NCBI RefSeq assembly: GCF_037023755.1
Contig: NZ_CP146100.1
Location: forward strand, 4,061,501 to 4,125,500
Reading direction: 5' to 3'
Source: Saccharopolyspora sp. SCSIO 74807
GTDB taxonomy: Bacteria > Actinomycetota > Actinomycetes > Mycobacteriales > Pseudonocardiaceae
DNA length: 64,000 bases
A model generated the notes under the pieces. The model made no database searches and was not told where the DNA came from. It was given only the letters and a program-made list of their open reading frames with translations. A program made the position numbers and the translations under genes. Below, in pieces: positions 35,063 to 53,185 of the stretch. Position 1 is the stretch's first letter; every line of letters starts with the position of its first letter.

Positions 35063-36481
35063 ATGAGCGTGCTGGGCGGTCTCGCGCCGGACACCGCGGG
35101 CCGGCGCCGCGAGCAGCGGGGATGGTGCTGGTACGACTGGGCCAACTCGGTGTTCCCGACGTCGGTGACCACGGTGTTCCTCTCGCTGTACCTGACGGGC
35201 GTGGCAACCGAGTCCGCTACCGCCGACCTCGCCCGCAACGGCCCCGGTGCGTGCCCCGGCGGCAACTCGCTGGTGCACTGCGACGTCTCGGTGCTGGGGC
35301 TGGTGTTCCCGGCAGGTTCGCTGTGGGGCTACCTGCTGTCGGCGGCCACCGTCGTGCAGGTCCTGGTGCTGCCGATCACCGGCGCCATCGCCGACCGCAC
35401 CCGCGGCAAGCGCACCATGCTCGCCGGTTTCGCCTTCGGCGGGGCGTTGGCGACCTCCCTGCTCGGGCTGGTCGGCAGTTCGAACTGGCGGCTGGGCATC
35501 GTGCTGTTCATCGCCGCGAACATCTGCTTCGGCGCCTCGGTGGTCGTCTACTACTCGTTCCTGCCGGAGATCGCGAGCACCGAGGAGCGCGACCGGGTCT
35601 CCTCGCGTGGCTGGGCGTTCGGCTACCTCGGGGGTGGCTGCGCGCTCGGCCTGCACCTGCTGCTCTACCTCGGGCACGACGCGATCGGGCTCAGCGAGAG
35701 CGCGGCGGTTCGGTGGATCTTCGTCTCCGCCGGTGTCTGGTGGGCGGTGTTCACCCTGCTGCCGCTGGCCGCGCTGCGCGGCCGGCCGGTGCACGGCAAC
35801 GACGAGCCGACCGGCGATGAGCGCGGCGTCGCGGTGATCACCGCCGGGTTCCGGCAGCTGGCCGGGACGTTGCGCCAGGCGCGGGCGTTCCCGCTCACGC
35901 TGGCGTTCCTCGGCTCCTACATGATCTACACCGACGGCATCGCCACGGTCACCCAGGTCTCGGCCCAGTACGGTGATCTCGAGTTGCGGCTGCCGCAGGA
36001 GTCGCTGATCATCACTTTCCTGATCGTGCAGTTCATCGCGTTCATCGGCGGCGTCCTGCACGGCGTGCTGGCGAGTCGGATCGGGGCGAAGAAGACCATC
36101 CTGGTGAGCCTGGTGGTGTGGATCGTCGTGCTGGCCGCGGCCTACTTCGTGCAGTCCGGTCAGCAGTTCCAGTTCTACGGGCTGGCGGTCGGCATCGGTC
36201 TCGTGCTCGGCGGCACCAACGCGCTGTCGCGCTCGCTGTTCAGCCAGATGGTGCCGGAGGGCAAGGAGGCCGAGTATTTCTCCCTCTACGAGGTCGGTGA
36301 GCGGTCCACGTCCTGGCTCGGTCCGCTGGTCTTCGCCGGCGTCGGCCAGGCCACCGGCTCGTTCCGGCTGGCGATCGTCTCGTTGGTGGTGTTCTTCGCG
36401 GTCGGGCTCGTGCTGGTGTCGCTGGTGCCGGTGCGCCGGGCCATCGAGGCGGTCGGCAACACGGCTCCGGAACGGTTGTGA
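35063..36481 (+). CDS. MFS transporter, Atg22/UMF1-like
   Basis: 472 residues with ~12 membrane segments. The N-terminal WCWYDWANSVFPTSVTTVFL is the diagnostic start of the Atg22/UMF1 family; ADRTRGKRTMLAGF is the loop 2-3 motif and PEGKEAEYFSLYEVGERSTS the conserved late loop. ATG 35063 follows GGAGAGGC. Substrate unknown; yeast Atg22 exports amino acids from the vacuole. Stand-alone, between GDPD and rbpA. Confidence 0.9.
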   Translation: MSVLGGLAPDTAGRRREQRGWCWYDWANSVFPTSVTTVFLSLYLTGVATESATADLARNGPGACPGGNSLVHCDVSVLGLVFPAGSLWGYLLSAATVVQVLVLPITGAIADRTRGKRTMLAGFAFGGALATSLLGLVGSSNWRLGIVLFIAANICFGASVVVYYSFLPEIASTEERDRVSSRGWAFGYLGGGCALGLHLLLYLGHDAIGLSESAAVRWIFVSAGVWWAVFTLLPLAALRGRPVHGNDEPTGDERGVAVITAGFRQLAGTLRQARAFPLTLAFLGSYMIYTDGIATVTQVSAQYGDLELRLPQESLIITFLIVQFIAFIGGVLHGVLASRIGAKKTILVSLVVWIVVLAAAYFVQSGQQFQFYGLAVGIGLVLGGTNALSRSLFSQMVPEGKEAEYFSLYEVGERSTSWLGPLVFAGVGQATGSFRLAIVSLVVFFAVGLVLVSLVPVRRAIEAVGNTAPERL

Positions 36482-36931
36482 ACCGCCCCTGAACTACTCG
36501 TCAGGTTCCGCCATGTCGGTGATGCGCTCGGTTATCGTCATCGGCAACATCGGAATATGCCAGTACGGAGTGTCGCGAGCACACTGCCGAGGGGGTGGCT
36601 ACATAACGTGATCAAGGCGGCGGGGCTCGTGTCGGAGCGGCACGTGATCTCGCCCCCAATCCCTGGAACAGAGTGCTGGTTAAGTTGCCCTAAGTGATAG
36701 CTGCTCTGGCACTATCACCCGTTCAGATCGACCTCTAGGTTGCGCGAGGGATAACACGTCGCGAACGCGGCCCGATGGATCTCTAGAGGGGACGATCTCG
36801 TTGACGAGTGAATAACGTCACCGACCGCGACATGGATCCCTGCGCCGGGAACAGGCAGCGGGACGTCCGTCGTTGCACTCGGTGAGCACAACCCGTCCGG
36901 ACCTGCGCCGGGCCGAAGGAAAGGAACCGTC
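36482..36931. other. 450-base regulatory region upstream of rbpA
   Basis: No gene. It holds a SigR-type promoter at 36847-36876 and an inverted repeat GTGATAG (36694-36700) / CTATCAC (36712-36718), which could terminate the transporter transcript or bind a regulator. A lower-GC stretch runs from about 36670 to 36830. Confidence 0.65.
36847..36876 (+). promoter_or_regulatory. SigR/SigH-type promoter of rbpA
   Basis: GGGAAC (36847-36852), an 18-base spacer, then CGTTGC (36871-36876), matching the GGGAAT-N18-CGTT pattern read by the disulfide-stress sigma factor. It is 55 bases upstream of the rbpA start. rbpA of Streptomyces coelicolor is known to be in the SigR regulon, which supports the call. 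Confidence 0.7.
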
Positions 36932-37276
36932 ATGGCCGATCGCGTTCTGCGTGGCAGCCGGCTCGGAGCGGTCAGCTACGAGACCGACCGCAATCACGAC
37001 CTCGCACCGCGCCGGACGGTGCGCTATGCCTGCTCCAAGGACCACGAGTTCGAGGTGCCGTTCTCCGACGACGCCGAGATCCCGCCGACTTGGGAGTGCC
37101 GCCTGCACGGCACCGAGTCGAAGATCATCGATGGTTCGGAGCCCGAGCAGAAGAAGGCCAAACCGCCGCGCACCCACTGGGACATGCTGCTGGAGCGCCG
37201 CAGCATTCCGGAACTGGAAGAACTGCTCAACGAGCGGCTGGAAGTGCTGCGGGGTCGGCGCAGCCACTCCGCCTGA
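36932..37276 (+). CDS. rbpA: RNA polymerase-binding protein RbpA
   Basis: 114 residues, the usual length. Marks: MADRVLRGSRLGAVSYETDR (the N-terminal tail), a zinc-ribbon-like core CSKDHEFEVPF...WECRLHG, a basic linker EQKKAKPPRTHWDMLLERRS and the C-terminal sigma-interaction helix IPELEELLNERLEVLRGRR. It stabilises the RNA polymerase-sigma holoenzyme and open complex in actinobacteria. ATG 36932 has AAGGAAAGGAACC upstream. A SigR-type promoter precedes it and a strong terminator follows. Confidence 0.97.
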   Translation: MADRVLRGSRLGAVSYETDRNHDLAPRRTVRYACSKDHEFEVPFSDDAEIPPTWECRLHGTESKIIDGSEPEQKKAKPPRTHWDMLLERRSIPELEELLNERLEVLRGRRSHSA

Positions 37277-37290
37277 GCAGCACTAGCTGC

Positions 37291-37308
37291 GCCCGCGATG
37301 CCGCGGGC
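37291..37308 (+). terminator. short hairpin after rbpA
   Basis: GCCCGCG-ATGC-CGCGGGC, a seven-base stem with four-base loop 15 bases after the rbpA stop. It lacks a T-tract and may only add to the main terminator downstream. Confidence 0.45.
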
Positions 37309-37320
37309 GAGCACATCGAG

Positions 37321-37360
37321 CGCCTGGGTCAAGCCCCGTGCGGGGGTGCCCAGGCGTTTT
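37321..37360 (+). terminator. rho-independent terminator between rbpA and ppm1
   Basis: Outer stem CGCCTGGG / CCCAGGCG with an inner CCCCG / CGGGG stem, then TTTT at 37357-37360. It ends the rbpA transcript and, being nearly symmetrical, may also serve the convergent ppm1-lnt operon. Confidence 0.85.
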
Positions 37361-37395
37361 CGTGCGCTGTGCGGTCCGCGCCGCGGTGGCACCGA

Positions 37396-38184
37396 TCAGC
37401 GTTGCGGGTTGAACAGCTCGTAGAGCTGGGCGGCACGGCGGCGCACGCCCCAGCGGGTCACCCGGAGCAGGGCTTCGCGCACGATGTCGCCGCTCATCTT
37501 GGAGTCGCCGAATTCGCGGTCGCTGAAGGTGATCGGAACTTCCACGATGACGTACCCGGCTTCCACGGCGCGCAGCGTCAGGTCGACCTGGAAGCAATAG
37601 CCCTGCGAGGCGACGTCCTCCAGCGGAAGCGCGGCCAGCACGTCCCTGCGGTAGACGCGGAAGCCGGCGGTGCTGTCGTTGACCGGCACGCCCAGCGCGT
37701 GCTTCGAGTAGATGTTCGCGCCACGCGAGAGCCACTGGCGTTGCCAGGTCCAATTCAGCACGCGCCCCCCGGTGACGTAGCGGGAGCCGATCACCACGTC
37801 GGCGCCCGCCCCGTCCGCACCGAGCATCGCCAGCAGCCTGGGCAGGTCCTCCGGGGCGTGTGAGCCATCCGCGTCCATCTCCACCACGGCCGCGTAGTCG
37901 CGGTCCAGCGCCCAGTGGAAACCGGCGACGTAGGCGGCGCCGAGGCCGGACTTTCCCGCGCGGTGCAGCACGTGCACCCGCTCGTCGGAGGCCGAGAGTC
38001 GTTCGGCGAGGTCGCCGGTGCCGTCGGGGCTGCCGTCATCGACGACCAGTACGTGCGCCGTTGGCAGTGCCGCGTGCAGGCGCTGCACGATCGGCTCCAG
38101 GTTTTCCCGCTCGTTGTACGTGGGGACAACCACGAGGGTCGTGCCGGGCACTCCCTTCCCATCCGGGGCGTGCCGGTTCGTCAT
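37396..38184 (-). CDS. ppm1: polyprenol monophosphomannose synthase
   Basis: 262 residues. GT2 marks: [49 protein letters not shown] (the Asp motif binding GDP-mannose and metal), GSRYVTGG and [14 protein letters not shown]. It transfers mannose from GDP-mannose to polyprenyl phosphate, the donor for lipoglycans and protein O-mannosylation. ATG 38184 has GGAG upstream. The lnt gene ends 60 bases upstream on the same strand; in mycobacteria the two functions are fused or adjacent. Confidence 0.94.
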
Positions 38185-38244
38185 CCGCTCCTCCTCGAGG
38201 TCACGCGCGTCCCCCAGGGACCGCTCGCGTGACCGGTGTGCCAG

Positions 38245-39966
38245 TCAGTTCTCGTCGTCGCCGCGGCCCGGCCGCGCAATGTCACTGCGGCTGGGCCGCG
38301 GATCGTCACTGTGGTCGGGCGGCGCATCGTCACTGCGGCCGGGCTGCGCCTCGTCGTCGCCGCTGGGGTGCGCATCGTCACCGCCGCCGGGCTGCGCGTT
38401 GGCGCTGCGGCGGCGACGCAGGCCGGTGGCTACCAGCGCACCCGCTCCGAGCAGGGACAGAACCCACCCGGGGGCGCCGCCGAGCGAGGTCGCCATGGTG
38501 CGCTCGGTGCGCAACGGCACCTCGCCGCTGACGTTCTGCGCGGTGAACTGGCCGGTCCGGTCGGCGATCACGCCGTCGGGCCGGATGATCGCGCTGACGC
38601 CGCTGGTCGCCGGAACCACTACGGCCCGCCCGGTCTCCACCGCGCGCAACCGGGACATGGCCAGGTGGTGCCAGCTCATCTCGGAATGCCCGTACCAGGC
38701 GTTGTTCGTCGGAACCGCCAGCAGCGTGGCGCCCTGCCGTGCCGCTCCGGTGAACACGTCGTCGTAGGCCACGTCGTAGCACAGCCCCACGCCGAGCCGG
38801 ACCGGTCCGGAATCCAGCACGCCCGGCCCGGCACCGGGGACCATGTCCTGCTGGAAGCGATCCACGAACGGGCTGACCAGGCGGGCCACCGAGCGCATCG
38901 GGATGGTCTCGGCGAACGGGACGAGGTGCTGCTTGGCGTACTCCGCGCCCGCGCCGCTGCCCGGGTCGAACTGCACGATGCGGTTGCGGAACGAGCCGTC
39001 CCGATCCACCGCGAACCCGCCGGCGACGACGGGCACGCCCAGCTGGTCGGTGATCCGGCTCAGCTCGGGGTCGTAGCGGGTAGGTCCCCAGTTGCCGACC
39101 TGTTCCGGCAGCAGCACGAGATCGGGGCGGGCGACGCGCCCGGTCTGCACGTCGGCGATGAGCTGCCGGGCACCACGGATGTGGTTGTCGTGCAGCGTGT
39201 CGTCGGCGTAGAGCAGATCCAGGCCGATGTTCGGCGCGTTGCCCTGCACCAGCGCCACTCGCGCCGTCCCGGCCTGCGGCTGGGTGCCGACCGTCGGCCA
39301 CAGCGACATGCCGGCGATCACCGGCACGAGCACGGCCGCCACGGGGGCGATGAGCCGCTTGCGCGTGTCGCGTGCCCGCAGCACCAGCTCGGCCAATCCG
39401 CAGCCGACGAGCGCGACCGCGAACGTCACCAGCGCCGCTCCGCCTACCGAGGCCAGTGGCAGAAGCCCACCGGTGGGCTGGGTGAACGCGAGCCGTCCCC
39501 ACGGGAATCCACCGAACGGCAAGCTGCCGCGCAGGGACTCGGCCAGCACGAACACCGCCGCCATCCACACCGCCGAACCCGGCAGCCTGCTCACCAGCGC
39601 CATCCCGGCACCGGCGAGTCCGAAGAACGCGGCTTCCACCAGGACCACGCCCAGCCACGGCCACGGGCCGAACTGGGCACCGAGGAAGTCCTGGATCCAG
39701 CCCAGCAGCGGCAGCATGTAGGCGGCGCCGAACAGCACCCCGTGGCCGAACCCGGCGCGGCCGCGGCGACCGTGCACCGTCCCGGCGAACAGCGCGAACG
39801 CCAGCGGCGCCAGCCACCAGAGGTCTCGCGGCGGGTTCGCGGCGTAGAGGGCGATGCCGGAAGCGACCGAAACCCCCGTCCGCACCCAGCCTGCGGCGCC
39901 CGGAATGCGGAGTCGGCGGGAGTGCCCCTCGTCGCGGGTCTGCGAGGTCACCGTGGGGGCACTCAC
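38245..39966 (-). CDS. lnt: apolipoprotein N-acyltransferase
   Basis: 573 residues from GTG 39966 (27 codons inside a longer frame that starts at 40047). About seven membrane segments, then a nitrilase-like domain with the catalytic triad in LLPEQVGNW (Glu), YAKQHLVPF (Lys) and GLCYDVAYDD (Cys). It N-acylates the lipid-modified Cys of lipoproteins at the outer face of the membrane. The C-terminal ~50 residues are an Asp/Pro/Arg-rich tail built from 8-residue repeats. Upstream of ppm1 in the same operon, the standard actinobacterial pairing. Confidence 0.94.
   Translation of the reverse strand: MSAPTVTSQTRDEGHSRRLRIPGAAGWVRTGVSVASGIALYAANPPRDLWWLAPLAFALFAGTVHGRRGRAGFGHGVLFGAAYMLPLLGWIQDFLGAQFGPWPWLGVVLVEAAFFGLAGAGMALVSRLPGSAVWMAAVFVLAESLRGSLPFGGFPWGRLAFTQPTGGLLPLASVGGAALVTFAVALVGCGLAELVLRARDTRKRLIAPVAAVLVPVIAGMSLWPTVGTQPQAGTARVALVQGNAPNIGLDLLYADDTLHDNHIRGARQLIADVQTGRVARPDLVLLPEQVGNWGPTRYDPELSRITDQLGVPVVAGGFAVDRDGSFRNRIVQFDPGSGAGAEYAKQHLVPFAETIPMRSVARLVSPFVDRFQQDMVPGAGPGVLDSGPVRLGVGLCYDVAYDDVFTGAARQGATLLAVPTNNAWYGHSEMSWHHLAMSRLRAVETGRAVVVPATSGVSAIIRPDGVIADRTGQFTAQNVSGEVPLRTERTMATSLGGAPGWVLSLLGAGALVATGLRRRRSANAQPGGGDDAHPSGDDEAQPGRSDDAPPDHSDDPRPSRSDIARPGRGDDEN
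38275..38394 (-). repeat. five tandem 24-base units in the lnt 3' end
   Basis: Five in-register 24-base units (starts 38275, 38299, 38323, 38347, 38371), for example CGCATCGTCACTGCGGCCGG followed by GCTG; a sixth degenerate copy precedes. In the minus frame each encodes an 8-residue piece of the type DDAxPGRS. This makes an extended acidic tail on Lnt that may vary in length between strains. Confidence 0.9.
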
Positions 39967-40094
39967 CCGATCAACTCTCTCGGTGCTGCGGCCGGCGGAA
40001 CCGGTGGTCGGACTGTCGCGATGCGCGGCGCCGCCGGGCGCCCGCACCTGTCAAATGTACGCCGCGGCACGCTCCGCCCCGGTCGGCCGGTCAC

Positions 40095-40574
40095 TCACCC
40101 ACCTGCCGGTTCGCCGGTGAAGCGCTTGAGCACGGTCGTCGCGCGGGCGCGCCCCGGCCAGAGCACGACGCGGTAGGCGTCCTCGTCGAACGCTGCGAAC
40201 CCTTCGCTGTAGACGCGGACGCGGTAGGTACCGGCGGGCAGGTCGAACCGCGCCGCACCGCACTGGCTCTCCGAACCGCCGAGCACCAGGATCCGCCCGC
40301 TGTCGACGTCCACGCTGGTTTCCGCGACGTGATCCCAGCCGTCGAGGTCGTCGGCGGGGGCGTGCGCGCTGATCTCCACCACGACCGGCACCCGCCGGCG
40401 GCGCGCGGTCCCCACGCTGACCACCCCGTCGCGGCTGGAGATCCGGTCCCGTTGCAGGTCGTTCGCGGTGTCGTCGATACCCGCCAAGTCATAGCCCGCG
40501 TGCGAGTCGCGTACCTCGAAGCTGTTGTGACCGGCGAAAAGCGCGATCCGACGCAGATTCCCGTTCAAGTCCAC
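40095..40574 (-). CDS. hypothetical protein, 159 aa
   Basis: Soluble, mostly beta, with three regions: RIALFAGHNSFEVRDSHAGY, VPVVVEISAHAPADDLDGWD and FDLPAGTYRVRVYSEGFAAF. The last resembles the C-terminus of small actinobacterial beta-sandwich proteins of unknown role. GTG 40574 has GGGGGA about six bases upstream. It lies 128 bases upstream of lnt on the same strand. No function can be given. Confidence 0.7.
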   Translation of the reverse strand: MDLNGNLRRIALFAGHNSFEVRDSHAGYDLAGIDDTANDLQRDRISSRDGVVSVGTARRRRVPVVVEISAHAPADDLDGWDHVAETSVDVDSGRILVLGGSESQCGAARFDLPAGTYRVRVYSEGFAAFDEDAYRVVLWPGRARATTVLKRFTGEPAGG

Positions 40575-40767
40575 TTCCGGTCCCCCAGTTTCGATCTCGG
40601 CGGTGTCGATCGTGCCCCCGGCGCAGTTCTAGCAGCCATGATCGGCACCGGTGCGGGATTACACCGGGTCGCGCGACGTGCTCGCCCGAACATGACCCGT
40701 ATGCGCCACCGCAAGGACTACCGGGCAGGGTTCCGGGGTGAACGAGTGACGATCGGGAGGAACGGCG

Positions 40768-41193
40768 ATGGGTTCAAGCTGGCCGCAGGGGGCGCCCGAG
40801 GTGGGCGCCAGCGCAGAGCTCTCGCGGGAGGTCACCGACCGCGATATCGAACGGTTCACCGAAATCAGCGGGGATCGCAATCCGCTGCACTACGACGAGC
40901 AGGCCGCGGCGGCCACCAGGTTCGGCGGCATCGTGGTGCAGGGCGGGGTGACCAGCGCGATCCTCAACGCGGTCGTGGCCGAAGAACTGCCCGGCCCCGG
41001 ATCGGTGTTCCTGAACACCCGCTTCGACTTCCAGGCACCGGTGCGTCCCGGAGACCGGATCACCGGCCGGGTCGAGATCACCGAAGTCCGCGAGGACAAG
41101 CCGATCACGCACCTGGACGTGTCGGTCACCCGCGACGACGGAACGGTGGCACTGAGCGGCACCGCCGTCTGCTACACGATGCCGATGTCCTGA
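40768..41193 (+). CDS. MaoC-family hot-dog dehydratase
   Basis: 141 residues, a single hot-dog fold. The hydratase-2 motif reads SGDRNPLHYDEQAAAATRFG (catalytic Asp and His), followed by VQGGVTSAILNAVVAEELPG. (R)-specific enoyl-CoA hydratases and related thioester dehydratases have this form. ATG 40768 follows GGGAGGAACGGCG. Stand-alone, so the acyl substrate is unknown. Confidence 0.9.
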   Translation: MGSSWPQGAPEVGASAELSREVTDRDIERFTEISGDRNPLHYDEQAAAATRFGGIVVQGGVTSAILNAVVAEELPGPGSVFLNTRFDFQAPVRPGDRITGRVEITEVREDKPITHLDVSVTRDDGTVALSGTAVCYTMPMS

Positions 41194-41281
41194 GCTCGGC
41201 TGCACGCTGATGCTTTCAGCCGGGTCGGGTCAGCGGGCTGCGGGCCGCTGCCGTGCGTGCGGTGAGCGCACCGGCCGCCCG

Positions 41282-41464
41282 TTAACCGTGCGCCTCGATG
41301 GCGCCGCAGGGCGGACGTCGGCCGCTTCGCGCACGATTCGTGCTGTTCTTCGACGGGCTCGGGGCGAGCAGCGTGACGTCGTCTCGCTGATCGAACACCT
41401 CGGGCGCGAGCAGCACGCATTGTCCGGATCCGCAGCACTTGCGCTCGTCTGCGGTGACTTTCAC
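41282..41464 (-). CDS. P450-type [3Fe-4S] ferredoxin with scrambled central frame (possible pseudogene)
   Basis: 60 codons from GTG 41464, which overlaps the TetR stop (GTGA). The start VKVTADERKCCGSGQCVLLA and PEVFDQRDDVTLLAP, and the end PPCGAIEAHG, are typical of small ferredoxins serving cytochromes P450. Between them the reading frame gives SPSKNSTNRARSGRR, but the other two frames contain the expected text: EPVEEQHE in one, IVREAADV in the next. Three indels that cancel would explain this. The cluster Cys residues all survive in the intact frame, so a protein could still form. No P450 gene is in the window. Confidence 0.75.
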   Translation of the reverse strand: MKVTADERKCCGSGQCVLLAPEVFDQRDDVTLLAPSPSKNSTNRARSGRRPPCGAIEAHG

Positions 41465-42138
41465 GCGTGCTCTCCGTCGCCGGCCCGGGAACGGGGTGCG
41501 CTGACCGGAGCCAGCCACAATCCGGTGATCGCATCGATCAGCCCGGTCGCCGCCTCGTACCAGGTGGCGCGGGGAGTGGCGGTGCCCTCGTCGAGCGCGC
41601 GCTCGCGTTCGGCAGGGATGTGCACCATCAGCTGCCGGACCATGTCGAACCGCTCCGCTCGCACGTCCGCGGGCATGTCGGGCAGGCAGCGGTTCAGCCC
41701 CGCGAGGGCCCGGTGTAGCGACGGTGCGCCGAGCGACTCCTCGACCATGATCGAACGGAAGCCCGGATCGGTCATCACCTGCGCGCAGAACCGGGAGTAC
41801 CAGGCGGGCACGTCCAGGTCGGCGAGGTGTTCGGTGGTCGGGCGGACCATGCAGGCCACCCAGTCCCGGACTTCGGTGGACTCGCCCACCGACTCGACCA
41901 GGCCCAGCCGCCGCTGTTCGATGTCGTCGTTGTGCCTGCGCACGATCGCGCGCACCAGGTCCGTCTTGGTGCCGAAGTGGTAGCCCACCGCGGCGTTGTT
42001 GCCCTGCCCGGCCGCCTCGCTGACCTGGCGATTGGAAACCGCGAACAGGCCGTGTTCGGCGAACAGCCGCTCGGCCGCGGACAGGATCCGCTCCCTGGTC
42101 GCGTCGGCGCGTTCGGCACGGGCGGTCTTGCGGGTCAT
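41461..42138 (-). CDS. TetR-family transcriptional regulator
   Basis: 225 residues from ATG 42138. HTH: ATRERILSAAERLFAEHGLF and SEAAGQGNNAAVGYHFGTKTDLV, followed by a helical ligand domain (DWVACMVRPTTEHLADLDVP). Its stop overlaps the ferredoxin start, so the two are co-expressed, a pairing usual for P450 systems. In-frame starts up to 42318 would add a Pro/Arg-rich leader without a clear site. Candidate operators are the palindromes in the upstream region. Confidence 0.88.
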   Translation of the reverse strand: MTRKTARAERADATRERILSAAERLFAEHGLFAVSNRQVSEAAGQGNNAAVGYHFGTKTDLVRAIVRRHNDDIEQRRLGLVESVGESTEVRDWVACMVRPTTEHLADLDVPAWYSRFCAQVMTDPGFRSIMVEESLGAPSLHRALAGLNRCLPDMPADVRAERFDMVRQLMVHIPAERERALDEGTATPRATWYEAATGLIDAITGLWLAPVSAPRSRAGDGEHA

Positions 42139-42828
42139 GGTCACCACCGAATCGGTACTTCCTGCGATCCGCCGCCGGCAGGTCGATCGTGGCCCGCCGC
42201 CGGCAACTCCAACGATGGCAGCCGCCGCGGCGGCGCCTTGCGCGCCATCTGCGGCTCGACCACCGCTCGGTCCGGCAGGAGTGCGCGGCGGTCGCGAACT
42301 TCGGCGCGCCTTCGGCATCCGAGCTCACGACGACTCCTCCGGAGACGACTGGGGTGACCAGTTAACTCGTACCGATGTCGATAAGTCAAACGACTGATTT
42401 AATGCAATTCGGGCGTCGCCGACAGAGCCGTGAGCGAGCGTTTCCCGCACGCGCGCGTACGGACGCACGCGTACGGACACAGTCGCCCGATGAGGCTGGT
42501 GAGCGGGCGCGAAAGGACGCCGCAGCAATCGGCACGTCGTGGTGCTGGGAGAGCGCACTGGCTTGATGACGTCTTCGTGCTCCCGGGCCCGGTCGCGACG
42601 GGTGCGCGCCGATCGCCGCACGACCGGGCCCGGTTCAACGTCCGCAGTCGGGTTCGGCAAAGACCGCCGAGATCACTTCGCAGAGCGGGTCGGGAAAATC
42701 GCGAAGATCAACGGCCGATGCCGGTACTTCTGATCAACCTCCGATGGCTGGTCGATGTGTCCGGTCCGATGAGAGAGCGGGAAGTCCGGTCGCGACGCTG
42801 TGGTTTGACGACGACGCGGAGCGGCTCG
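42139..42828. other. 690-base intergenic region with candidate operators, no gene seen
   Basis: Lies between the TetR gene and the 3' end of the geosmin synthase gene, both on the minus strand. An AT-richer stretch at 42355-42410 contains AGTTAACT (42360-42367) and AGTC-AAAC-GACT (42384-42395), plausible TetR operator half-sites. I see no supported gene. Confidence 0.55.
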
Positions 42829-46566
<3,738 letters not shown>

Positions 46567-47961
46567 ATGCGCACGGGCGAGCAACGGGACGAGGCACTGC
46601 TACCGATGCAACGAGGCGGCCGCCGGCTTTGCGGCTTGCGCGCCGCGCTGACCGACGACGACCCGACGCGGGCCGATCCCGCGTTCGCCCGGCTCGTCCG
46701 GGAACTGTTCGACCCTGCCTCGGCGGGGCCGGTGGACGTGGTCGGGCTGACCGGAGTGATCACCGGACGGCCGCATCCCAACCGCGCGCGGGTGGCCTTG
46801 CTGCTCGGGTTGCTCGCCGGCGAGGACCGCGCCCGCCCGCACTTCGCCGAGCAGGTGCGCGATGCCGTCCGCGGGGATTTGGAAGCGCACCTTTCGGTGC
46901 TGTTGTCGGCCGAAACCGAGCCGGCCCTGCGCGCCGCACTGCTGCATCTGCTCGCGCACCTTCCGGAGGAACGAAGCGGCATCCTGCCCGCCGTCTGCCG
47001 GTGCGCGGACGAGGAGGACATCAGCAGGGTGCGCCGGTGCCTGACCGCGCCGAGACCGGGCGAGCCGGGCTCGGTGGCCGGGCTGGGCCGCGCGTGGCCG
47101 TCGCCGGTGCACTGGCGTCCCGCTCCCGAGCGGCCTCCGGAACGTCCGCGCGGACCCGCGGAGCTGACCGAACTGTGGCGATCGGAAACTATGGCGCTGC
47201 TCGCGTACTTGGGGGCGCGGGCCGAACACGAGATCCACCACGCGGTGGGATGGCCGGACCTCGCCGGTTTTTCGGTGCCGCTGCCCGAGACCGACGTCCG
47301 TTGCGCTTACCGCGAGTTGCTGGAGCACGACCCGATAGTGGCCGAGCACTACGAGGACGTCGTCCGACCCGCGGTGCGGAACCTGCTGGGCGGCAACTGG
47401 GAAGACTTGGTGACCACTCGGGACGAAGACGCTTACCTGCGGCGCAACCTGCGGGCCGCGCCCGGGCCGGTGCTCGATCTGGCGTGCGGCACCGGCCGCT
47501 GGACTCGGGTGCTGGCCGAGCAGTTCGGCCCGGACCGGGTGGTCGGACTGGACCTGTCCCGGGTCGCGCTCGATGCGGCCGGATCGGCGGTACCGGGCGC
47601 GCGGTTCACCGAGGGAGACGCCAGGGCGCTGCCGTTCCCGGACGGCTACCTGGGCGCGGTGAACTGCTCGGACGCGCTGCACCTGCTGCCGGACGTCGAG
47701 CAGGTCGTCGCCGAGGTCGCACGCTGCCTGCACCCGGCGGGGACGTTCACGGTGAGCAGTTTCCGATGGGCGCAGCGTCCGTTCCAACGGTGGCTGCAAC
47801 GGCGGCACGAGCAGGTTTTCGGGATCCGCTCGTTCGATCCCGCACGGCTTTCCGCGGTGCTGACCGCGGCCGGGCTGGACATCGTGGATTCCAGCGGTCC
47901 CGGCTCGTTCCTGTTCCTGACCGCCCGCAGGAGGCGCGATCCGAACAGACCGTTGCGCTGA
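46567..47961 (+). CDS. SAM-dependent methyltransferase with N-terminal helical domain
   Basis: 464 residues. The N-terminal ~200 residues are all-helical and HEAT-like (ARVALLLGLLAGEDRARPHF, AALLHLLAHLPEERSG). After a linker comes a class I methyltransferase: VLDLACGTGRWTRVLAEQ (SAM motif I), VVGLDLSRVALDAA, ARFTEGDARALPFPDG and LGAVNCSDALHLLPDVEQVV. ATG 46567 has AAGGAG eight bases upstream. It ends 190 bases before the cobalamin riboswitch, so it is transcribed separately but may belong to the same pathway. Substrate unknown. Confidence 0.87.
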   Translation: MRTGEQRDEALLPMQRGGRRLCGLRAALTDDDPTRADPAFARLVRELFDPASAGPVDVVGLTGVITGRPHPNRARVALLLGLLAGEDRARPHFAEQVRDAVRGDLEAHLSVLLSAETEPALRAALLHLLAHLPEERSGILPAVCRCADEEDISRVRRCLTAPRPGEPGSVAGLGRAWPSPVHWRPAPERPPERPRGPAELTELWRSETMALLAYLGARAEHEIHHAVGWPDLAGFSVPLPETDVRCAYRELLEHDPIVAEHYEDVVRPAVRNLLGGNWEDLVTTRDEDAYLRRNLRAAPGPVLDLACGTGRWTRVLAEQFGPDRVVGLDLSRVALDAAGSAVPGARFTEGDARALPFPDGYLGAVNCSDALHLLPDVEQVVAEVARCLHPAGTFTVSSFRWAQRPFQRWLQRRHEQVFGIRSFDPARLSAVLTAAGLDIVDSSGPGSFLFLTARRRRDPNRPLR

Positions 47962-48150
47962 TCCCGGTGGCGCACAGCCGTGGCGGTTCCGCCGCCGCGG
48001 TGCTCGTCACCTCGCAGGCACATCCGCAACGCGCTGGTCAGCGCGTTCTGCACGCGTCGTTGAAAATCGCTGCCGGAAAGTCCGGTGCGTGATCGTGCGC
48101 ACCACGGGCCTTGACAGCGCACCCGTGTGCTGCGAACTTCTCAGGCGTTC

Positions 48151-48305
48151 AGACGACGGTGCGTAGGAAGCCGGTGCGAGTCCGGCGCGGTCCCGCCACT
48201 GTGAGTGGGGAGCCGGTCTCCACCGACGCCACCGCCGGAATTCCGGTGGGAAGGCCGGAGACGCGGCGCTGATCCACGAGCCAGGACACTGGCGCCGTCG
48301 TGCGA
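48151..48305 (+). ncRNA. cobalamin (adenosylcobalamin/B12) riboswitch
   Basis: Contains the conserved core: GGAAGCCGGTGCGAGTCCGG (48166-48185), CGGTCCCGCCACTGTGA (48188-48204), and the B12 box AGCCAGGACACTGGC (48279-48293). The ends pair: ACGACGGTGC at 48153-48162 with GCGCCGTCGT at 48292-48301. Such elements repress the downstream gene when B12 is abundant. It precedes a 27-codon ORF and the DUF364-PLP-MFS genes. Confidence 0.95.
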
Positions 48306-48311
48306 GATTCG

Positions 48312-48331
48312 CTCGGGGTCGCGGAGCCCCG
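48312..48331 (+). terminator. hairpin in the riboswitch expression platform
   Basis: CTCGGGG pairs with CCCCGGAG (one bulge), just before GGAGGAGGTTTTCAG. It could act as a terminator (T4 follows within ten bases) or, as I favour, hide part of the ribosome binding site of the 27-codon ORF. Confidence 0.45.
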
Positions 48332-48345
48332 GAGGAGGTTTTCAG

Positions 48346-48429
48346 GTGCTCCTGCTCGGTGCAGCGTGCCGGTTCAGCGCTTTTCCCACCGATCACCGCG
48401 TGCGGTCTCGCGAATTCAGCTCGTCCTGA
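48346..48429 (+). CDS. 27-codon leader ORF after the riboswitch
   Basis: GTG 48346 is seven bases after GGAGGAGG, one of the best ribosome binding sites in the window. The product begins MLLLGAACRFSAFPTDHRV and ends FSSS; it has one Cys and no known family. It lies between the riboswitch and the DUF364 gene, 39 bases upstream of that gene's start. A likely role is to be the translated target of the switch, or a leader whose translation affects the genes behind it; a peptide product with its own role is possible. Confidence 0.55.
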   Translation: MLLLGAACRFSAFPTDHRVRSREFSSS

Positions 48430-48468
48430 GCTGATCCGGCCATTTCCTTTTGCAGCCCGGGGAGACAC

Positions 48469-49311
48469 GTGCCTGCTGCCGTCACGCCGAACACCTCATT
48501 CCTGGACGCAGTGGTCCAGCGCGCCCTCGACGGCGAGTTCGCCGTCGCCGCCGGAACGGACCCGTCCGAGGCGCACGCCGCCGTCGGGTTCCTGACCGTG
48601 CAGGCGGCCAAGCACACCGGCCGCAGCACGGGCTACGTCAACACCGTGGTCAGCGTCCGGGTGGGCGCCGCGGTGGGATCTTGCGCCGTCGAGCCGGGAG
48701 CGGTCGATGAGAAGGTCGTCCAGGACGCCGTGGGGCGCAGCGTCCGCGAATTGCTGGCGCACCCGGAACCTGCCGTCCGCGTGGCCGCGCTGGACGCTTA
48801 CTTGGCATTCGCCGCGCCGCACGCGACGGATCCGCGTGCGCGTCAAGTCGTGGTTCCCGCTGGGAGTTCGCTGGAGAAGTCGATGGCGCGCGCTCGCGCC
48901 GTCGCCGCGCTGACCCGGGTTCCGGACGGTGGCCGGGTCGCGGTCATCGGCGTGGTGAATTCGTTGCTCTCGGCGTTGCGGGAACGCGGTATCGACTACG
49001 TGCCCTGCGATCTCAAAGGCGGCCGGACCGAATGGGGCGAACCGGTCGTGGACGACTACGCGCGGGCGGTGGCGGACGCCGATGCCGTGGTCGCATCCGG
49101 AATGGTGCTGGGCAATGGGACTTTCGACGACATAGCCGATCGCTGCCTGCGCCGGAACCTGCCGCTGACGATGTTCGCGCAGACCGGAGCGGCCGTGCTG
49201 CGCGAACTGCTCGGCGCTCCGGTGCAGGCGTTGTCGGCGGAGCCGTATCCGTTCTTCTGGCTCACCGGTGATTCCAGCACGCTCTACAGCTACGAGGTGG
49301 GGCGGACGTGA
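48469..49311 (+). CDS. DUF364 (putative heavy-metal chelation, Rossmann-like) protein
   Basis: 280 residues from GTG 48469 (GGGGAG five bases upstream). N-terminal DUF4213-like part: STGYVNTVVSVRVGAAVGSC; then the DUF364 Rossmann-like domain RVAVIGVVNSLLSALRERGI...VADADAVVASGMVLGNGTFD and the end EPYPFFWLTGDSSTLYSYEV. Members are predicted to bind metals or a nucleotide cofactor; no reaction is proven. First of three coupled genes under a B12 riboswitch; its stop overlaps the next start (GTGA). Confidence 0.85.
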   Translation: MPAAVTPNTSFLDAVVQRALDGEFAVAAGTDPSEAHAAVGFLTVQAAKHTGRSTGYVNTVVSVRVGAAVGSCAVEPGAVDEKVVQDAVGRSVRELLAHPEPAVRVAALDAYLAFAAPHATDPRARQVVVPAGSSLEKSMARARAVAALTRVPDGGRVAVIGVVNSLLSALRERGIDYVPCDLKGGRTEWGEPVVDDYARAVADADAVVASGMVLGNGTFDDIADRCLRRNLPLTMFAQTGAAVLRELLGAPVQALSAEPYPFFWLTGDSSTLYSYEVGRT

Positions 49312-50414
49312 CCGTGACGGGAGCTCCGGTGGCCCCGAGGTGCGAGTCCGCGATCGATCTCATCGGCAACACGCCGATGCTTCGGGTGCGCACACCGATT
49401 TCGTTCGCACACCCGGGTTTTTGGGCGAAGCTGGAGGGAACGGCGCCCGGCGGCATGAAGGCCAGGGCGGCGCGCTCGATGCTTGCGGGCGCACGCAGTC
49501 GCGGCGAGCTGGCGCCTGGCGGCACCGTGGTCGAGTCCACGAGCGGCACGCTCGGCATCGGGCTGGCTTGCGTCGGCTCGGCCATGGGGCACCCGGTCGT
49601 GATCGTGGCGGACGACGAACTCGACGACATGACTCGCGCGTTGCTGCGCGCCCACGGCGTCCGGTTGGAGCTGGTGCGCGAGCCACATCCGCGCGGCGGC
49701 TGGCAGCGCGCCCGGCTGGACCGGGTGCGGGAGCTGATGCGCACGTTGCCGGATCCGTACTGGCCGGACCAGTACAACAACCCGGACAACGTCACCGGCT
49801 ACCACGAGCTCGGCCATGAGCTGCTGGATCAGCTCGGTGACGTGGACGCGGTGGTGTGCAGCGTCGGCACCGGCGGGCACAGCGCCGGAATCGCGCAGGT
49901 GCTGCGCACGCACCGACCGGACGCACGGGTCGTCGGGGTGGATGCGGCCGGTTCCACGGTCTTCGGCGACCCCGCCGCGAAACGGCTGATGCGCGGGCTG
50001 GGCAGCAGCATCCACCCGGACAACGTCGACTACGGCGTGTTCGACGAGGTGCATTGGGTGGGCGCCGCGGAGGCGGTGCACGGCTGCCGCACGCTGGCCG
50101 CGGACGCGTTCGTGACCGGTGGCTGGAGCACCGGCGCGGTCGCGCTGGTGGCGTCCTGGTGTGCGCGGGAGCTGGATTCCGACCGGGTCGCGGCGGTGTT
50201 CCCGGATGGTCCGCACCGCTACTGGCACACGATTTACGACGATGATTTCCGCGCCGAGCACGGGTTGACCGGCTCGGCGGTGGCACCGCAGGACGTGGAC
50301 TCGTCCGATGTGGACGGTCCGGTTGGATGGAGGAGGTCGCACCGAGTGGTGGATCCGTGTACCCGGCGAGCGGCACGGTCGGAGTGCCCGGTCTGCGGGC
50401 AGGAGCGGTCATGA
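49308..50414 (+). CDS. PLP-dependent enzyme of the cysteine synthase/SbnA-like family
   Basis: 368 residues. Fold type II PLP enzyme: CESAIDLIGNTPMLRVRTP, PLP Lys51 in GGMKARAARSML, the substrate loop ESTSGTLGIGLA, and the phosphate-binding GTGGHSAGI. It performs beta-replacement, typically on O-acetyl- or O-phosphoserine; SbnA-like members make diaminopropionate derivatives for metallophores. It has a C-terminal extension ending CPVCGQERS. Coupled by GTGA to DUF364 and by ATGA to the MFS gene. The true product is unknown. Confidence 0.88.
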   Translation: MTVTGAPVAPRCESAIDLIGNTPMLRVRTPISFAHPGFWAKLEGTAPGGMKARAARSMLAGARSRGELAPGGTVVESTSGTLGIGLACVGSAMGHPVVIVADDELDDMTRALLRAHGVRLELVREPHPRGGWQRARLDRVRELMRTLPDPYWPDQYNNPDNVTGYHELGHELLDQLGDVDAVVCSVGTGGHSAGIAQVLRTHRPDARVVGVDAAGSTVFGDPAAKRLMRGLGSSIHPDNVDYGVFDEVHWVGAAEAVHGCRTLAADAFVTGGWSTGAVALVASWCARELDSDRVAAVFPDGPHRYWHTIYDDDFRAEHGLTGSAVAPQDVDSSDVDGPVGWRRSHRVVDPCTRRAARSECPVCGQERS

Positions 50415-51661
50415 ACAGGGCCGCGTTCGCCAGGTTGTCCCCGGCGGCGAAGCTGCTGGTGATCAACCAGTTCGGCATCAACGTCGGCTTCTACATGCTG
50501 ATGCCGTTCCTGGCCTCGTACATGAGCGACCGGCTCGGTTACGGCGCCGCGGTGGTCGGGCTGGTGCTCGGCGTCCGCAACCTCAGCCAGCAGGGCATGT
50601 TCCTGCTCGGCGGCACGGCGGCGGACCGGCTGGGCTGCCGTCCGATGATCATCGCGGGTTGTGCGCTGCGGATCGTCTCGTTCGGCCTGTTCGCGGTGTT
50701 CACCTCGCTGCCCGGGTTGTTCGCGGCGGCGATCCTGACCGGGCTGGCCGGTGCGCTGTTCAACCCGGCGGTGCGCACCTACCTGATGCACGAGTCGGGG
50801 GAGCGCCGCGCCGAGGTCTTCGCCGTGTTCAACGTGTTCCAGCACGCGGGCACGCTGGTCGGGCCGCTGCTGGGCGCGTTGTTGCTGACGGTGGACTTCC
50901 GGCTGATCGCGCTCGTGGCGTGCGTGGCGTTCGCGGTGCTGACCGCGGCGCAGCTGTTCGTGCTGCCGCACCGGGAGGTCGAGAAGCAGCAGCAGAGCGT
51001 GCTCGGCAGCTGGCGCGAGGTCGTGCTCAACCGCCGGTTCGTGGCGTTCACGCTGTCGCTGTCGGCGTACTTCGCGCTCTACAACCAGCTGTACCTGACC
51101 TTGCCGCTGGAGGCGCAGCGCGTTTCCGGGTTCTCGCAGTCGGTCGCGGTGGTGTTCGGGATCTCCACGCTGATCGGCGTGTTCGGGCAGGTGCGGATCA
51201 CCGAGTGGTGCCGCGGGCGGTGGAGTTCGGGCCGCTCGATCGTCATCGGCTTGTGCTGCATGGGCGGCTCTTTCGTGCCGGTTTCGCTGGCTGCGCCGAT
51301 GCTGCCGGAGCACGCCGGGCCGGTGGTGGCGTTCGTGCCGGTCGTGGTGGCCACCGTGTTGTTCACGGTCGGTCAGGCGATGACGAACCCGTTCGCGATG
51401 GAACTGCTGCCGCAGTTGGGCAGCGAGCGGCTGACCGGTACCTACTACGGCTTCTACTACCTGGTCTCCAGCTTGGCCGCGGCCGGCGTGAGCTGGATGG
51501 CCGGAGCGCTGCTCGACGAGTTCGCCGCACCGGCGGGACGGTGGGTGCCGTGGCTGGCGTTGCTGCTGGTCGGTTTGGCGGGCGCCGCAGGCACCGCCGC
51601 GATGGAGCGTCGTGGGTCGCTCGCACCGGCTCGGAGCGAGGAACAGCCCGCTACGACCTGA
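50411..51661 (+). CDS. MFS exporter
   Basis: 416 residues from ATG 50411, which overlaps the PLP gene stop (ATGA) and has GGAG five bases upstream. About twelve membrane helices; drug-exporter-like marks: GLVLGVRNLSQQGMFLLGGT, ADRLGCRPMIIAG (loop 2-3) and AGALFNPAVRTYL. It most resembles small-molecule exporters rather than uptake systems. Third gene of the B12-controlled cassette, so it probably exports the product of the two enzymes. Confidence 0.9.
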   Translation: MNRAAFARLSPAAKLLVINQFGINVGFYMLMPFLASYMSDRLGYGAAVVGLVLGVRNLSQQGMFLLGGTAADRLGCRPMIIAGCALRIVSFGLFAVFTSLPGLFAAAILTGLAGALFNPAVRTYLMHESGERRAEVFAVFNVFQHAGTLVGPLLGALLLTVDFRLIALVACVAFAVLTAAQLFVLPHREVEKQQQSVLGSWREVVLNRRFVAFTLSLSAYFALYNQLYLTLPLEAQRVSGFSQSVAVVFGISTLIGVFGQVRITEWCRGRWSSGRSIVIGLCCMGGSFVPVSLAAPMLPEHAGPVVAFVPVVVATVLFTVGQAMTNPFAMELLPQLGSERLTGTYYGFYYLVSSLAAAGVSWMAGALLDEFAAPAGRWVPWLALLLVGLAGAAGTAAMERRGSLAPARSEEQPATT

Positions 51662-51790: not shown

Positions 51791-53185
51791 ATGACCGATC
51801 CGACGTTCTACCGCAGTCCCGCCGAAGCCATCGCGGCCCCGAGCGAACAGCTCGCCTACGTCGCGGCGTTCGACCGTTCCGGGCAGCGGCCCGACGCGAT
51901 GACGGTCGTCGACGTGAACCCGGACTCCGCCGGGTACGGCCGCGTCGTCGGTTGGACCGACATGCCGGGCAAGGGCGACGAGCTGCACCACTTCGGCTGG
52001 AACGCGTGCAGCAGCGCCCTCAAGCACGAGGGCCACGACATGGACGGGTTGTCCAGGCGGTACCTGATCGTGCCGGGCTTGCGGTCTTCGCAGCTGCACG
52101 TGCTGGACACCGCCGGTGATCCGCGCAGTCCCGTCTTGACCAAGACGGTCTCCGCCGCCGAACTGGCCGCGAAAGCCGGTTATTCCCGTCCGCACACGCT
52201 GCACTGCGGTCCGGACGGGGTGTTCATGACCTGTCTCGGCGGTTCCAACGGCTCGGACGGTCCGGGCGGCATCGCGCTGCTCGATCACGACACGTTCGAC
52301 GTGCTGCGCAAGTGGGAGACCGATCGGGGACCGCAGCACTTCGCATATGACGCCTGGTGGCACCTCAACCGGAACACCCTAGTCAGCAGCGAGTGGGGCA
52401 CGCCCTCGATGATCGAGGACGGGCTCGTGCCGGAGCAGTTGCTCGGGCACCAGTACGGTCACGCACTGCACTTCTGGAACCTGCGCACCGGCGAGCACGA
52501 GCAGCGGGTCGATCTCGGCGAGCAGCACCAGATGGTGCTGGAGCTGCGGCCCTCGCACGATCCCGAGGCGGAGTGGGGCTTCGCCGGAGTCGTGATCAGC
52601 ACCGAGGACCTGTCCGCCTCGGTGTGGCGGTGGTACCGCGAAGGCGGGCAGTGGACCGCGGACAAGGTCATCACGGTGCCGGCCGAACCGGCCGAAGCGG
52701 ATCTGCTGCCGCCCGCGCTGAAACCGTTCGGCGCGGTGCCGCCGATGATCACCGACATCGACCTGTCCGTGGACGACCGGTTCCTCTACGTCTCCTGCTG
52801 GGGGACCGGGGAACTCAAGCAGTTCGACGTCACCGACCCCGCGCTGCCGCGGGAGACCGGTTCGGTGCACCTGGGCGGAATCGTGCGCCGCCGTCCGCAC
52901 CCCGCCGCACCTGCTTCGCCGCTCTCCGGCGGTCCGCAGATGGTCGAGATCAGCCGCGACGGGCGGCGCGTTTACCTGACGAACTCGCTCTACGGTGCTT
53001 GGGACGACCAGTTCTATCCGGACGGCGTCGGTGCTTGGATGGCCAAGCTGGACGCCGACCCGGCCGGTGGACTCACGGTGGACGAGTCGTTCTTCCCGCA
53101 CGGCGAGGATTTCCGCGGCCTGCGGGTGCACCAGGTGCGCTTGCAGGGCGGCGACGCCTCTTCCGACTCCTACTGCTACCGCTGA
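51791..53185 (+). CDS. selenium-binding protein family (SBP56), methanethiol oxidase type
   Basis: 464 residues, the family length. Beta-propeller with conserved pieces DMPGKGDELHHFGWNACSS, YSRPHTLHCGPDGVFMTCLG, VSSEWGTPSMIEDGL and GGPQMVEISRDGRRVYLTNS; bacterial members oxidise methanethiol to formaldehyde, H2O2 and sulfide using copper. ATG 51791 has GGGAGG upstream. It follows the MFS gene by 130 bases in the same direction; whether it shares the riboswitch transcript is unclear. Confidence 0.92.
   Translation: MTDPTFYRSPAEAIAAPSEQLAYVAAFDRSGQRPDAMTVVDVNPDSAGYGRVVGWTDMPGKGDELHHFGWNACSSALKHEGHDMDGLSRRYLIVPGLRSSQLHVLDTAGDPRSPVLTKTVSAAELAAKAGYSRPHTLHCGPDGVFMTCLGGSNGSDGPGGIALLDHDTFDVLRKWETDRGPQHFAYDAWWHLNRNTLVSSEWGTPSMIEDGLVPEQLLGHQYGHALHFWNLRTGEHEQRVDLGEQHQMVLELRPSHDPEAEWGFAGVVISTEDLSASVWRWYREGGQWTADKVITVPAEPAEADLLPPALKPFGAVPPMITDIDLSVDDRFLYVSCWGTGELKQFDVTDPALPRETGSVHLGGIVRRRPHPAAPASPLSGGPQMVEISRDGRRVYLTNSLYGAWDDQFYPDGVGAWMAKLDADPAGGLTVDESFFPHGEDFRGLRVHQVRLQGGDASSDSYCYR

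Follow-up and report, generated by a model that had tools for sequence, protein, structure and literature searches.

We analysed a stretch of 64,000 nucleotides (nt) from Saccharopolyspora sp. SCSIO 74807 (contig NZ_CP146100.1, positions 4,061,501 to 4,125,500), which is referred to as the window in this text. On its forward strand, a cobalamin riboswitch is followed by three overlapping genes that encode a DUF364 protein, a pyridoxal phosphate (PLP) enzyme and a transporter of the major facilitator superfamily (MFS). An initial annotation of the letters and their translated open reading frames (ORFs) had proposed that this cassette serves to make and export a small chelating molecule at low levels of vitamin B12, perhaps one for cobalt. 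The features of the cassette, numbered from the first letter of the window, are the following:

48140..48313, + strand: cobalamin riboswitch aptamer, RF00174 (cmscan 85.1 bits, E 1.5e-19, full model 1-189)
48315..48338, + strand: expression platform, conserved directly behind the aptamer; hairpin GGGGTCGCGGAGCCCC, then an 8-nt Shine-Dalgarno sequence GGAGGAGG
48346..48429, + strand: putative upstream ORF of 27 codons, which starts with GTG downstream of the platform and whose peptide is not conserved
48469..49311, + strand: DUF364 (PF04016) protein of 280 amino acids (aa), proposed chelator-building enzyme (Pfam 22.3 bits; AlphaFold 2 model)
49308..50414, + strand: SbnA-like fold-type II PLP enzyme, 368 aa, proposed to join amino acids by beta-replacement (PF00291, 185 bits)
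50411..51661, + strand: MFS transporter, 416 aa, proposed chelator exporter (PF07690, 134 bits)

Genes of the cassette

The aptamer exceeds the Rfam gathering threshold of 31.5 bits, which places it in the cobalamin riboswitch family by Rfam scan, and it is the sole match above gathering in the window. The three genes behind it are coupled as first described, by a GTGA overlap at 49308-49311 (DUF364 and PLP genes) and an ATGA overlap at 50411-50414 (PLP and MFS genes). The MFS protein also matches the MdtH model with 157 bits, under the cut-off of 469.

The DUF364 protein narrowly misses the Pfam cut-off of 23 bits (E 1.1e-4). Its AlphaFold model, made from a 37-sequence alignment, has a predicted local distance difference test (pLDDT) value of 90.5. 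The two DUF364 proteins with solved structures, 3l5o and 3npg, supply all six of its best PDB matches (TM-score 0.53–0.59 by query length; E 1.1e-8 to 4.4e-7), and the model displays the enolase-N-like and Rossmann-like domains of these solved members. Because the model matches both solved proteins best, the predicted structure upholds the DUF364 label, though the Pfam score falls short. Among the matches listed, the closest relative is a protein of Saccharopolyspora sp. HNM0986 with 99% identity.

Distribution of the cassette

A family sample of 200 genomes was searched with the window's DUF364 protein, and 81 genomes had matches. We sorted the DUF364 loci by their context into three classes, with part of the matches classified. 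Class A is the arrangement seen in the window (riboswitch-DUF364-PLP-MFS). Class B combines genes for an ATP-grasp protein, DUF364, a PLP enzyme, an enolase-superfamily protein, an MFS protein, a methyltransferase and an importer with a NikA-type substrate-binding protein (SBP). Class C consists of DUF364 and a more distant PLP enzyme that is 30–34% identical to the window's.

Class A cassettes occur in at least 21 of the 200 family genomes, with RF00174 upstream in 21 of 21. The DUF364 gene is present in 20/20 class A loci, and the overlap between PLP and MFS genes measures 4 nt in all 20 family loci compared. We also scanned 84,980 named species genomes and examined 80 of 290 confirmed relatives. 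Fourteen of these loci belong to class A and 66 to class B. The 14 named class A loci come from Saccharopolyspora, Saccharomonospora, Prauserella, Actinopolyspora and a metagenome-assembled genome of the Pseudonocardiaceae; eleven lie in genomes already among the 21 and three (L134, L135, L138) are new, which brings the total to 24 distinct genomes.

A regular expression for the aptamer recovered just 4 of 20 known cases, and Rfam and a riboswitch model of our own (R1) were used instead. The 26 sequences behind R1 came for the most part from family genomes, and one site was among them twice (L001 = L084). It matches just upstream of 14/14 named class A cassettes, including the three new ones, and no riboswitch precedes any of the 66 class B operons according to this model; its sole other match, in L158 at E 0.07, is located over 6 kb ahead of the operon. 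Counting the triads that carry an upstream cobalamin riboswitch, a check proposed at the outset, thus gave 21 of 21 family genomes and three further named genomes. When 394 genomes of the wider class were searched for the MFS protein, the window's own protein alone scored above 380 bits, and for this reason class A appears to be confined to this lineage within the genomes sampled.

A binding-protein-dependent importer under the same control

Seven B12 riboswitches are present in the genome that contains the window (G000, 6.69 Mb). They precede the cassette, nrdAB, metE, cobN, a set of cobaltochelatase/cobO/cobB genes, a FecCD-type importer and an ATP-binding cassette (ABC) importer of the SBP_bac_5 type. 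The FecCD-type importer has putative F420-0 and Eit siderophore types as its best models, with BtuC next for the permease. The SBP_bac_5 importer (L078, P0004) comprises a binding protein (PF00496, 225 bits) and two permeases (PF00528), and a carbonic anhydrase gene comes next after it.

The co-occurrence of this importer with the cassette is exact. At more than 680 bits, its SBP is found in 21 of the 200 family genomes, which are precisely the 21 class A genomes, and in none of the other 179. In 13 of the 21, the SBP gene stands directly behind the MFS gene and is followed by two permease genes and an ATPase gene (13/13). The operonic form in these 13 genomes hence reads riboswitch-DUF364-PLP-MFS-SBP-permease-permease-ATPase, and Pfam confirms the domains in L067. 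In the remaining eight (six genomes of the window's genus, G129 and G185), the importer is located elsewhere, with an RF00174 riboswitch of its own in 8/8; in G000, about 1.57 Mb separate it from the cassette. An ATPase gene follows the split importers of G129 and G185, so that the set is complete in 2 of 8 split loci. The split importers of the window's genus (L078, L258-L262) have retained the SBP and both permeases and have no adjoining ATPase homologue.

The best models for the importer ATPase (L067) are NikE (323 bits), CntF (296 bits), CntD (294 bits) and NikD (281 bits), and for the SBP (L078) a NikA-type model with 102 bits, all below their cut-offs. An apparent MFS-SBP fusion in L070/L139 was discarded upon inspection: the C-terminus of the MFS part is read in the wrong register, as a frameshift would cause, and the two genes occupy different frames in L133, the S. 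spinosa locus in which the cassette is accompanied by its importer.

Judged by gene order and riboswitches, it is well supported that cassette and importer constitute one unit controlled by B12 switches. The initial annotation had described the three genes correctly and overlooked this importer, which makes the case for a chelator system much stronger.

A leader common to cassette and importer

The platform behind the aptamer is found, identical or with one- to two-base variants, in the window and in the class A loci of both the family set (20/20) and the named set (14/14), which have 11 genomes in common. It also occurs in 8/8 leaders of split importers. It was seen in 0 of 66 class B loci and is absent from the other five riboswitch leaders of G000 and from the leaders examined in genomes that have the importer without a class A cassette. 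A putative upstream ORF of 19–38 codons with an 8-nt Shine-Dalgarno sequence is present in all 15 cassette leaders examined; in the importer leader of G000, this ORF overlaps the SBP start as GTGA. Hairpin, strong Shine-Dalgarno sequence and upstream ORF form a nearly invariant arrangement in the window (48315-48429) and in L001, L086, L087, L091 and L092. A private platform common to cassette and importer suggests that a leader was duplicated as the operon came apart, or that events ran the other way.

The PLP enzyme

The PLP enzyme was initially called cysteine-synthase/SbnA-like, and of the two it lies nearer to SbnA. It scores 253.6 bits against TIGR03945 (SbnA, 2,3-diaminopropionate synthase), under the equivalog cut-off of 349.95, and 172.9 bits against the CysKM model. 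TIGR03945 is matched by all 16 members of our set A2 (best E 6.5e-80). The closest solved sequences are SbnA (155 bits), then a cysteine synthase (147 bits) and CmnB (141 bits).

In a tree of 59 PLP enzymes, those of classes A, B and C form a clade of their own (100/98) in the neighbourhood of SbnA; several deep branches of this tree are long and their joins uncertain. The SbnA enzymes above the TIGR03945 cut-off make up other, nearby clades. The CBS-like (L211) and CysM-like (L216) enzymes of G000 fall outside the class A/B/C clade. A placement among ordinary cysteine synthases had been named as an outcome that would speak against a chelator enzyme; tree and profile scores set the protein apart from both of these enzymes, and the identification as an ordinary cysteine synthase was rejected.

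K47, R132, Y152 and S185 of SbnA are the PLP lysine and the residues that bind O-phosphoserine. The first three correspond to K51, R136 and Y156 of the window's enzyme and S185 to G187; all four positions are invariant in 16 aligned class A sequences. SbnA condenses glutamate with O-phosphoserine, and diaminopropionate is then freed by SbnB. We recognised no SbnB-like gene in the class A operon, where no profile search aimed at SbnB was made. The likeliest secreted chelator would therefore be the SbnA-type condensation product, an aminopolycarboxylate, or a form of it modified by the DUF364 protein.

All 16 aligned class A enzymes end in a tail with the pattern W.R...DPC, mostly followed by C.VC (in the window, the last 30 codons of 49308-50414). 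In the class B enzyme compared (L038 alone), W.R and DPA stand at the same tail. The cysteine-containing tail of class A is possibly a metal-binding one. Four more SbnA-type enzymes above the TIGR03945 cut-off are encoded in the same genome (G000:C1, at 921534, 926402, 5090496 and 5765540).

Sister cassettes with a Zur-like box

The 66 named class B loci (L143-L186, L188-L209) are mainly from Streptomyces, with others from Rhodococcus and one from Saccharothrix. Triads of this kind without any link to B12 would have told against the initial proposal; the relatives that lack the riboswitch turned out to carry extra enzymes and a Zur-like box instead. No cobalamin riboswitch was found in 29 class B and C family loci scanned (20 about 11 kb long, the rest with 1.5 kb flanks). 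The upstream regions of class B contain a palindrome-like site, TGACAATGAAAAtGATTATCGaTA, which scores 29–52 bits in 64 of 65 regions and 9 bits in the 65th (L201), with a motif built on the same 65 regions that it scored (64 of the 66 named class B loci and L038). The best of 1,300 shuffled regions reached 6 bits.

This site agrees with 13 of the 15 specified letters of the published actinobacterial Zur-box consensus taaTGaNAANNNTTNtCANta (PMC5472717). A search with the published consensus, which is independent of the built motif, found sites that agree in 12 or more of the 15 letters in 5/11 family class B loci and 4/10 class C loci. At the same threshold, such a site was missing from the other 6 of 11 class B loci and from all 20 class A loci, and none occurred in 1.16 Mb of single-base-shuffled sequence read on one strand.

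The window's genome itself harbors a class B cassette (L038, 747-7020, minus strand), whose DUF364 and PLP proteins are 55–59% identical to those of the window and which has a Zur-consensus site about 37 nt ahead of its first gene. The same core is thus present twice in one genome, once with a Zur box and once with B12 switches. By its genes and its box, the widespread class B operon is a candidate for a possibly undescribed zincophore family. Two class C loci were read in detail (L047, 694-7846; L054, 2630-10327). Both contain a FecCD-type importer and an MFS gene, and L054 additionally has a GHMP kinase and a methyltransferase.

Cobalt transporters and B12 synthesis

CobN is encoded in 21 of 21 class A genomes, so cobalt insertion into corrins can be expected there. 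A search for the cobalt transporters CbiM, NicO and CbtA found none of them in the window's genus (six genomes). Over the 200 family genomes, 12/21 of class A and 21/179 others lack the whole trio (p 6e-6, in Fisher tests that take no account of kinship). CbtA is present in 3/21 against 123/179 (p 2e-6), and CbiM in 6/21 against 101/179 (p 0.02). NicO was counted at a best E below 1e-20 (81 genomes); alternative tallies are 111 at E 1e-3 and 99 over the cut-off. The 12 class A genomes without transporters have no NicO match even at 1e-3. In genus g39, CbtA occurs in 0 of 5 genomes with the cassette and in 1 of 5 without it. In G112, CbtA lies directly behind a riboswitch. Thirteen B12-synthesising species without any cobalt transporter found are reported in PMC2667541.

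Proposed function and its alternatives

The unit of cassette and importer very probably represents a metallophore system, because biosynthetic genes, an exporter and a NikA/CntA-type importer come as a set and because a sister set carries a Zur-like box. The control by B12, the presence of CobN and the missing transporters point to cobalt as the metal. We therefore consider it likely, with somewhat less certainty than the metallophore function as such, that the unit is a metallophore system for cobalt, repressed by B12, in which a small chelator is made, exported and taken up again. The initial proposal is thereby supported and withstood the checks on B12-free triads and on the PLP phylogeny; the chelator, the cobalt and the repression by B12 are what we infer.

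Such a system might work as follows. When adenosylcobalamin is scarce, the riboswitch would leave the strong ribosome-binding site and the upstream ORF open, and the operon would be expressed. The SbnA-like enzyme would couple an activated serine, probably O-phosphoserine, with an amino acid to yield a small aminopolycarboxylate, which the DUF364 protein may finish or condense. The MFS protein would export the chelator, and the NikA/CntA-type importer would return the cobalt complex to feed CobN-dependent B12 synthesis.

Several observations weigh against this explanation. The PLP enzyme, SBP, ATPase and MFS protein all score under the curated cut-offs of named families, and G187 occupies the position of S185 in SbnA, so that the substrate may differ from that of SbnA. 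The minimum free energy fold of the leader is no more stable than shuffled sequences (z -0.18) and is uninformative. The 16 kb around the split importer contain no homologue of the importer ATPase in any of the six genomes of the window's genus; the importer must there borrow an ATPase or have one encoded elsewhere. The transporter data are not uniform either: NicO is present in 8/21 class A genomes and in 73/179 others (p 1.0), i.e. without difference; the Fisher tests ignore kinship; and within genera the comparison of CbtA in genomes with and without the cassette is mixed (0/2 vs 5/5 in g34, 2/6 vs 0/4 in g26). At least one of CbiM, NicO and CbtA is encoded in 9 of 21 class A genomes (all three in G025 and G112), hence the system is not simply a replacement for them. 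Finally, 12 of the 200 genomes have the importer at 520–650 bits without a class A cassette, and it may thus take up other ligands. RF00174 lies upstream in 7 of 9 such importer-only genomes scanned (38–84 bits) and not in the other two. These genomes, whose loci are L105-L113 and L116-L127, may use chelators made by other bacteria.

One could also imagine a metallophore that mainly serves another metal than cobalt, such as nickel or zinc, or several metals, with the B12 level acting as a proxy signal. The nearest importer models are indeed those for nickel and staphylopine uptake, the sister cassette carries a regulator box of the zinc type, and opine zincophores bind several metals (PMC7438024). 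However, all class A loci have the B12 aptamer and 0 of 20 have a Zur-consensus site, the same genome already contains the Zur-box cassette L038, next to which a second zinc system under B12 control is implausible, and cobalt is the single metal on which B12 reports. We regard a main metal other than cobalt as unlikely.

Less likely still is a secreted molecule that handles corrinoids or their precursors instead of free cobalt, for example by carrying cobinamide or a lower-ligand base. A B12 riboswitch and an importer under the same control would fit this idea. Yet the importer of the cassette is of the SBP_bac_5/NikA type and not of the Peripla_BP_2 type, and the separate FecCD-type importer, which has BtuC among its matches though not as the best one, possesses a riboswitch of its own. 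We also know of no place for SbnA-like chemistry in corrinoid synthesis.

Ordinary sulfur metabolism, in which a cysteine synthase-type enzyme and an amino-acid exporter are expressed along with metE at low B12, would agree with the PF00291 fold, the 147-bit match to a cysteine synthase structure and the metE gene under another riboswitch of G000, but is very improbable given that the PLP tree and profile scores separate the enzyme from CysM-like and CBS enzymes, that DUF364 and the co-regulated importer are left unexplained, and that the sister cassettes have a Zur-like box.

Returning to the cobalt metallophore, we lean, with more reserve than for the system itself, towards regarding it as the first dedicated cobaltophore. 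It would be made by two enzymes, the SbnA-like PLP enzyme and the DUF364 protein, would represent a new class of aminopolycarboxylate chelators governed by a B12 riboswitch, and would stand as one branch within a large superfamily of actinobacterial metallophores. The sister branch would be zinc-controlled, with a Zur-like box and added ATP-grasp, enolase-superfamily and methyltransferase genes.

Neighbouring genes

Three neighbours of the cassette were considered and not retained as parts of it. An upstream gene with a methyltransferase domain (46525-47961) was matched in 4/20 class A loci, a downstream SBP56 gene (selenium-binding/methanethiol oxidase-like, 51791-53185) in 3/20, and a terpene cyclase in 4/20. 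The two-domain terpene cyclase (42829-45081, minus strand) matches a family 2 encapsulin cargo model with 1116 bits, under the cut-off of 1200. No encapsulin model was matched in five ORFs scanned near it (35063-42147).

Comparison with known systems

In the literature searched, to which subscription papers and preprints mostly did not belong, we found nothing that joins DUF364 with a cobalamin riboswitch, no cobalamin riboswitch with a metallophore and no cobaltophore. Further literature searches likewise showed no such system among the matches listed, in line with the initial annotation, which knew of no described system of this make-up. Organisms that make B12 depend on a supply of cobalt, a scarce metal; a secreted and recaptured cobalt chelator under direct B12 control, if confirmed, would fill a transporter gap and could account for the six genomes of the window's genus in which no CbiM, NicO or CbtA was found. 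It would also give DUF364 a function, its first. A role of DUF364 in heavy-metal uptake was proposed earlier from structure and genome context (PMC2954201). A B12-controlled and a Zur-box cassette in one genome are in addition a ready pair for studying the metal specificity of metallophores.

With the known cobalt transporters of B12 makers, too, the cobalt supply is tied to B12 (PMC2667541). CbiMNQO, CbtAB and NicO/NiCoT import ions, whereas the cassette of the window belongs to a set for synthesis, export and reimport that includes biosynthetic enzymes. For the control element, a parallel is found in Mycobacterium tuberculosis, where upstream ORFs are reported to modulate the B12 riboswitch control of metE and ppe2 (PMC11260477). 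Like the leader in the window, these combine a B12 aptamer with a short upstream ORF, but the hairpin and Shine-Dalgarno platform described here is distinct, nearly invariant and common to cassette and importer.

The SbnA/SbnB pathway to 2,3-diaminopropionate, used for staphyloferrin B, and CmnB provide some of the closest solved PLP sequences, and K51, R136 and Y156 are conserved in the window's enzyme. The differences from SbnA/SbnB are the TIGR03945 score (254 against 350 bits), G187 in place of S185 and an SbnB that was not recognised in the operon, in the absence of a profile search for it. [S,S]-ethylenediamine-disuccinate (EDDS) is an aminopolycarboxylate. It is the zincophore of Amycolatopsis japonicum (aes genes), an actinomycete chelator that was found via Zur sites (PMC6103462, PMC13379591). 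The EDDS system thus depends on zinc and Zur, whereas the cassette of the window is linked to B12.

The overall plan resembles that of staphylopine and other opine-like zincophores. There, CntKLM synthesise the metallophore, CntE exports it and CntABCDF import the complex; the unit described here equally joins synthesis genes with an MFS exporter and a NikA/Opp-type ABC importer, whose ATPase is closest to the NikE, CntF and CntD models. The opine dehydrogenase CntM (PF10100) was detected in 0 of 21 class A genomes, in a search in which no positive control responded. In contrast to the staphylopine system, DUF364 and an SbnA-like PLP enzyme stand at the synthesis step, and a B12 riboswitch replaces the metal-sensing repressors.

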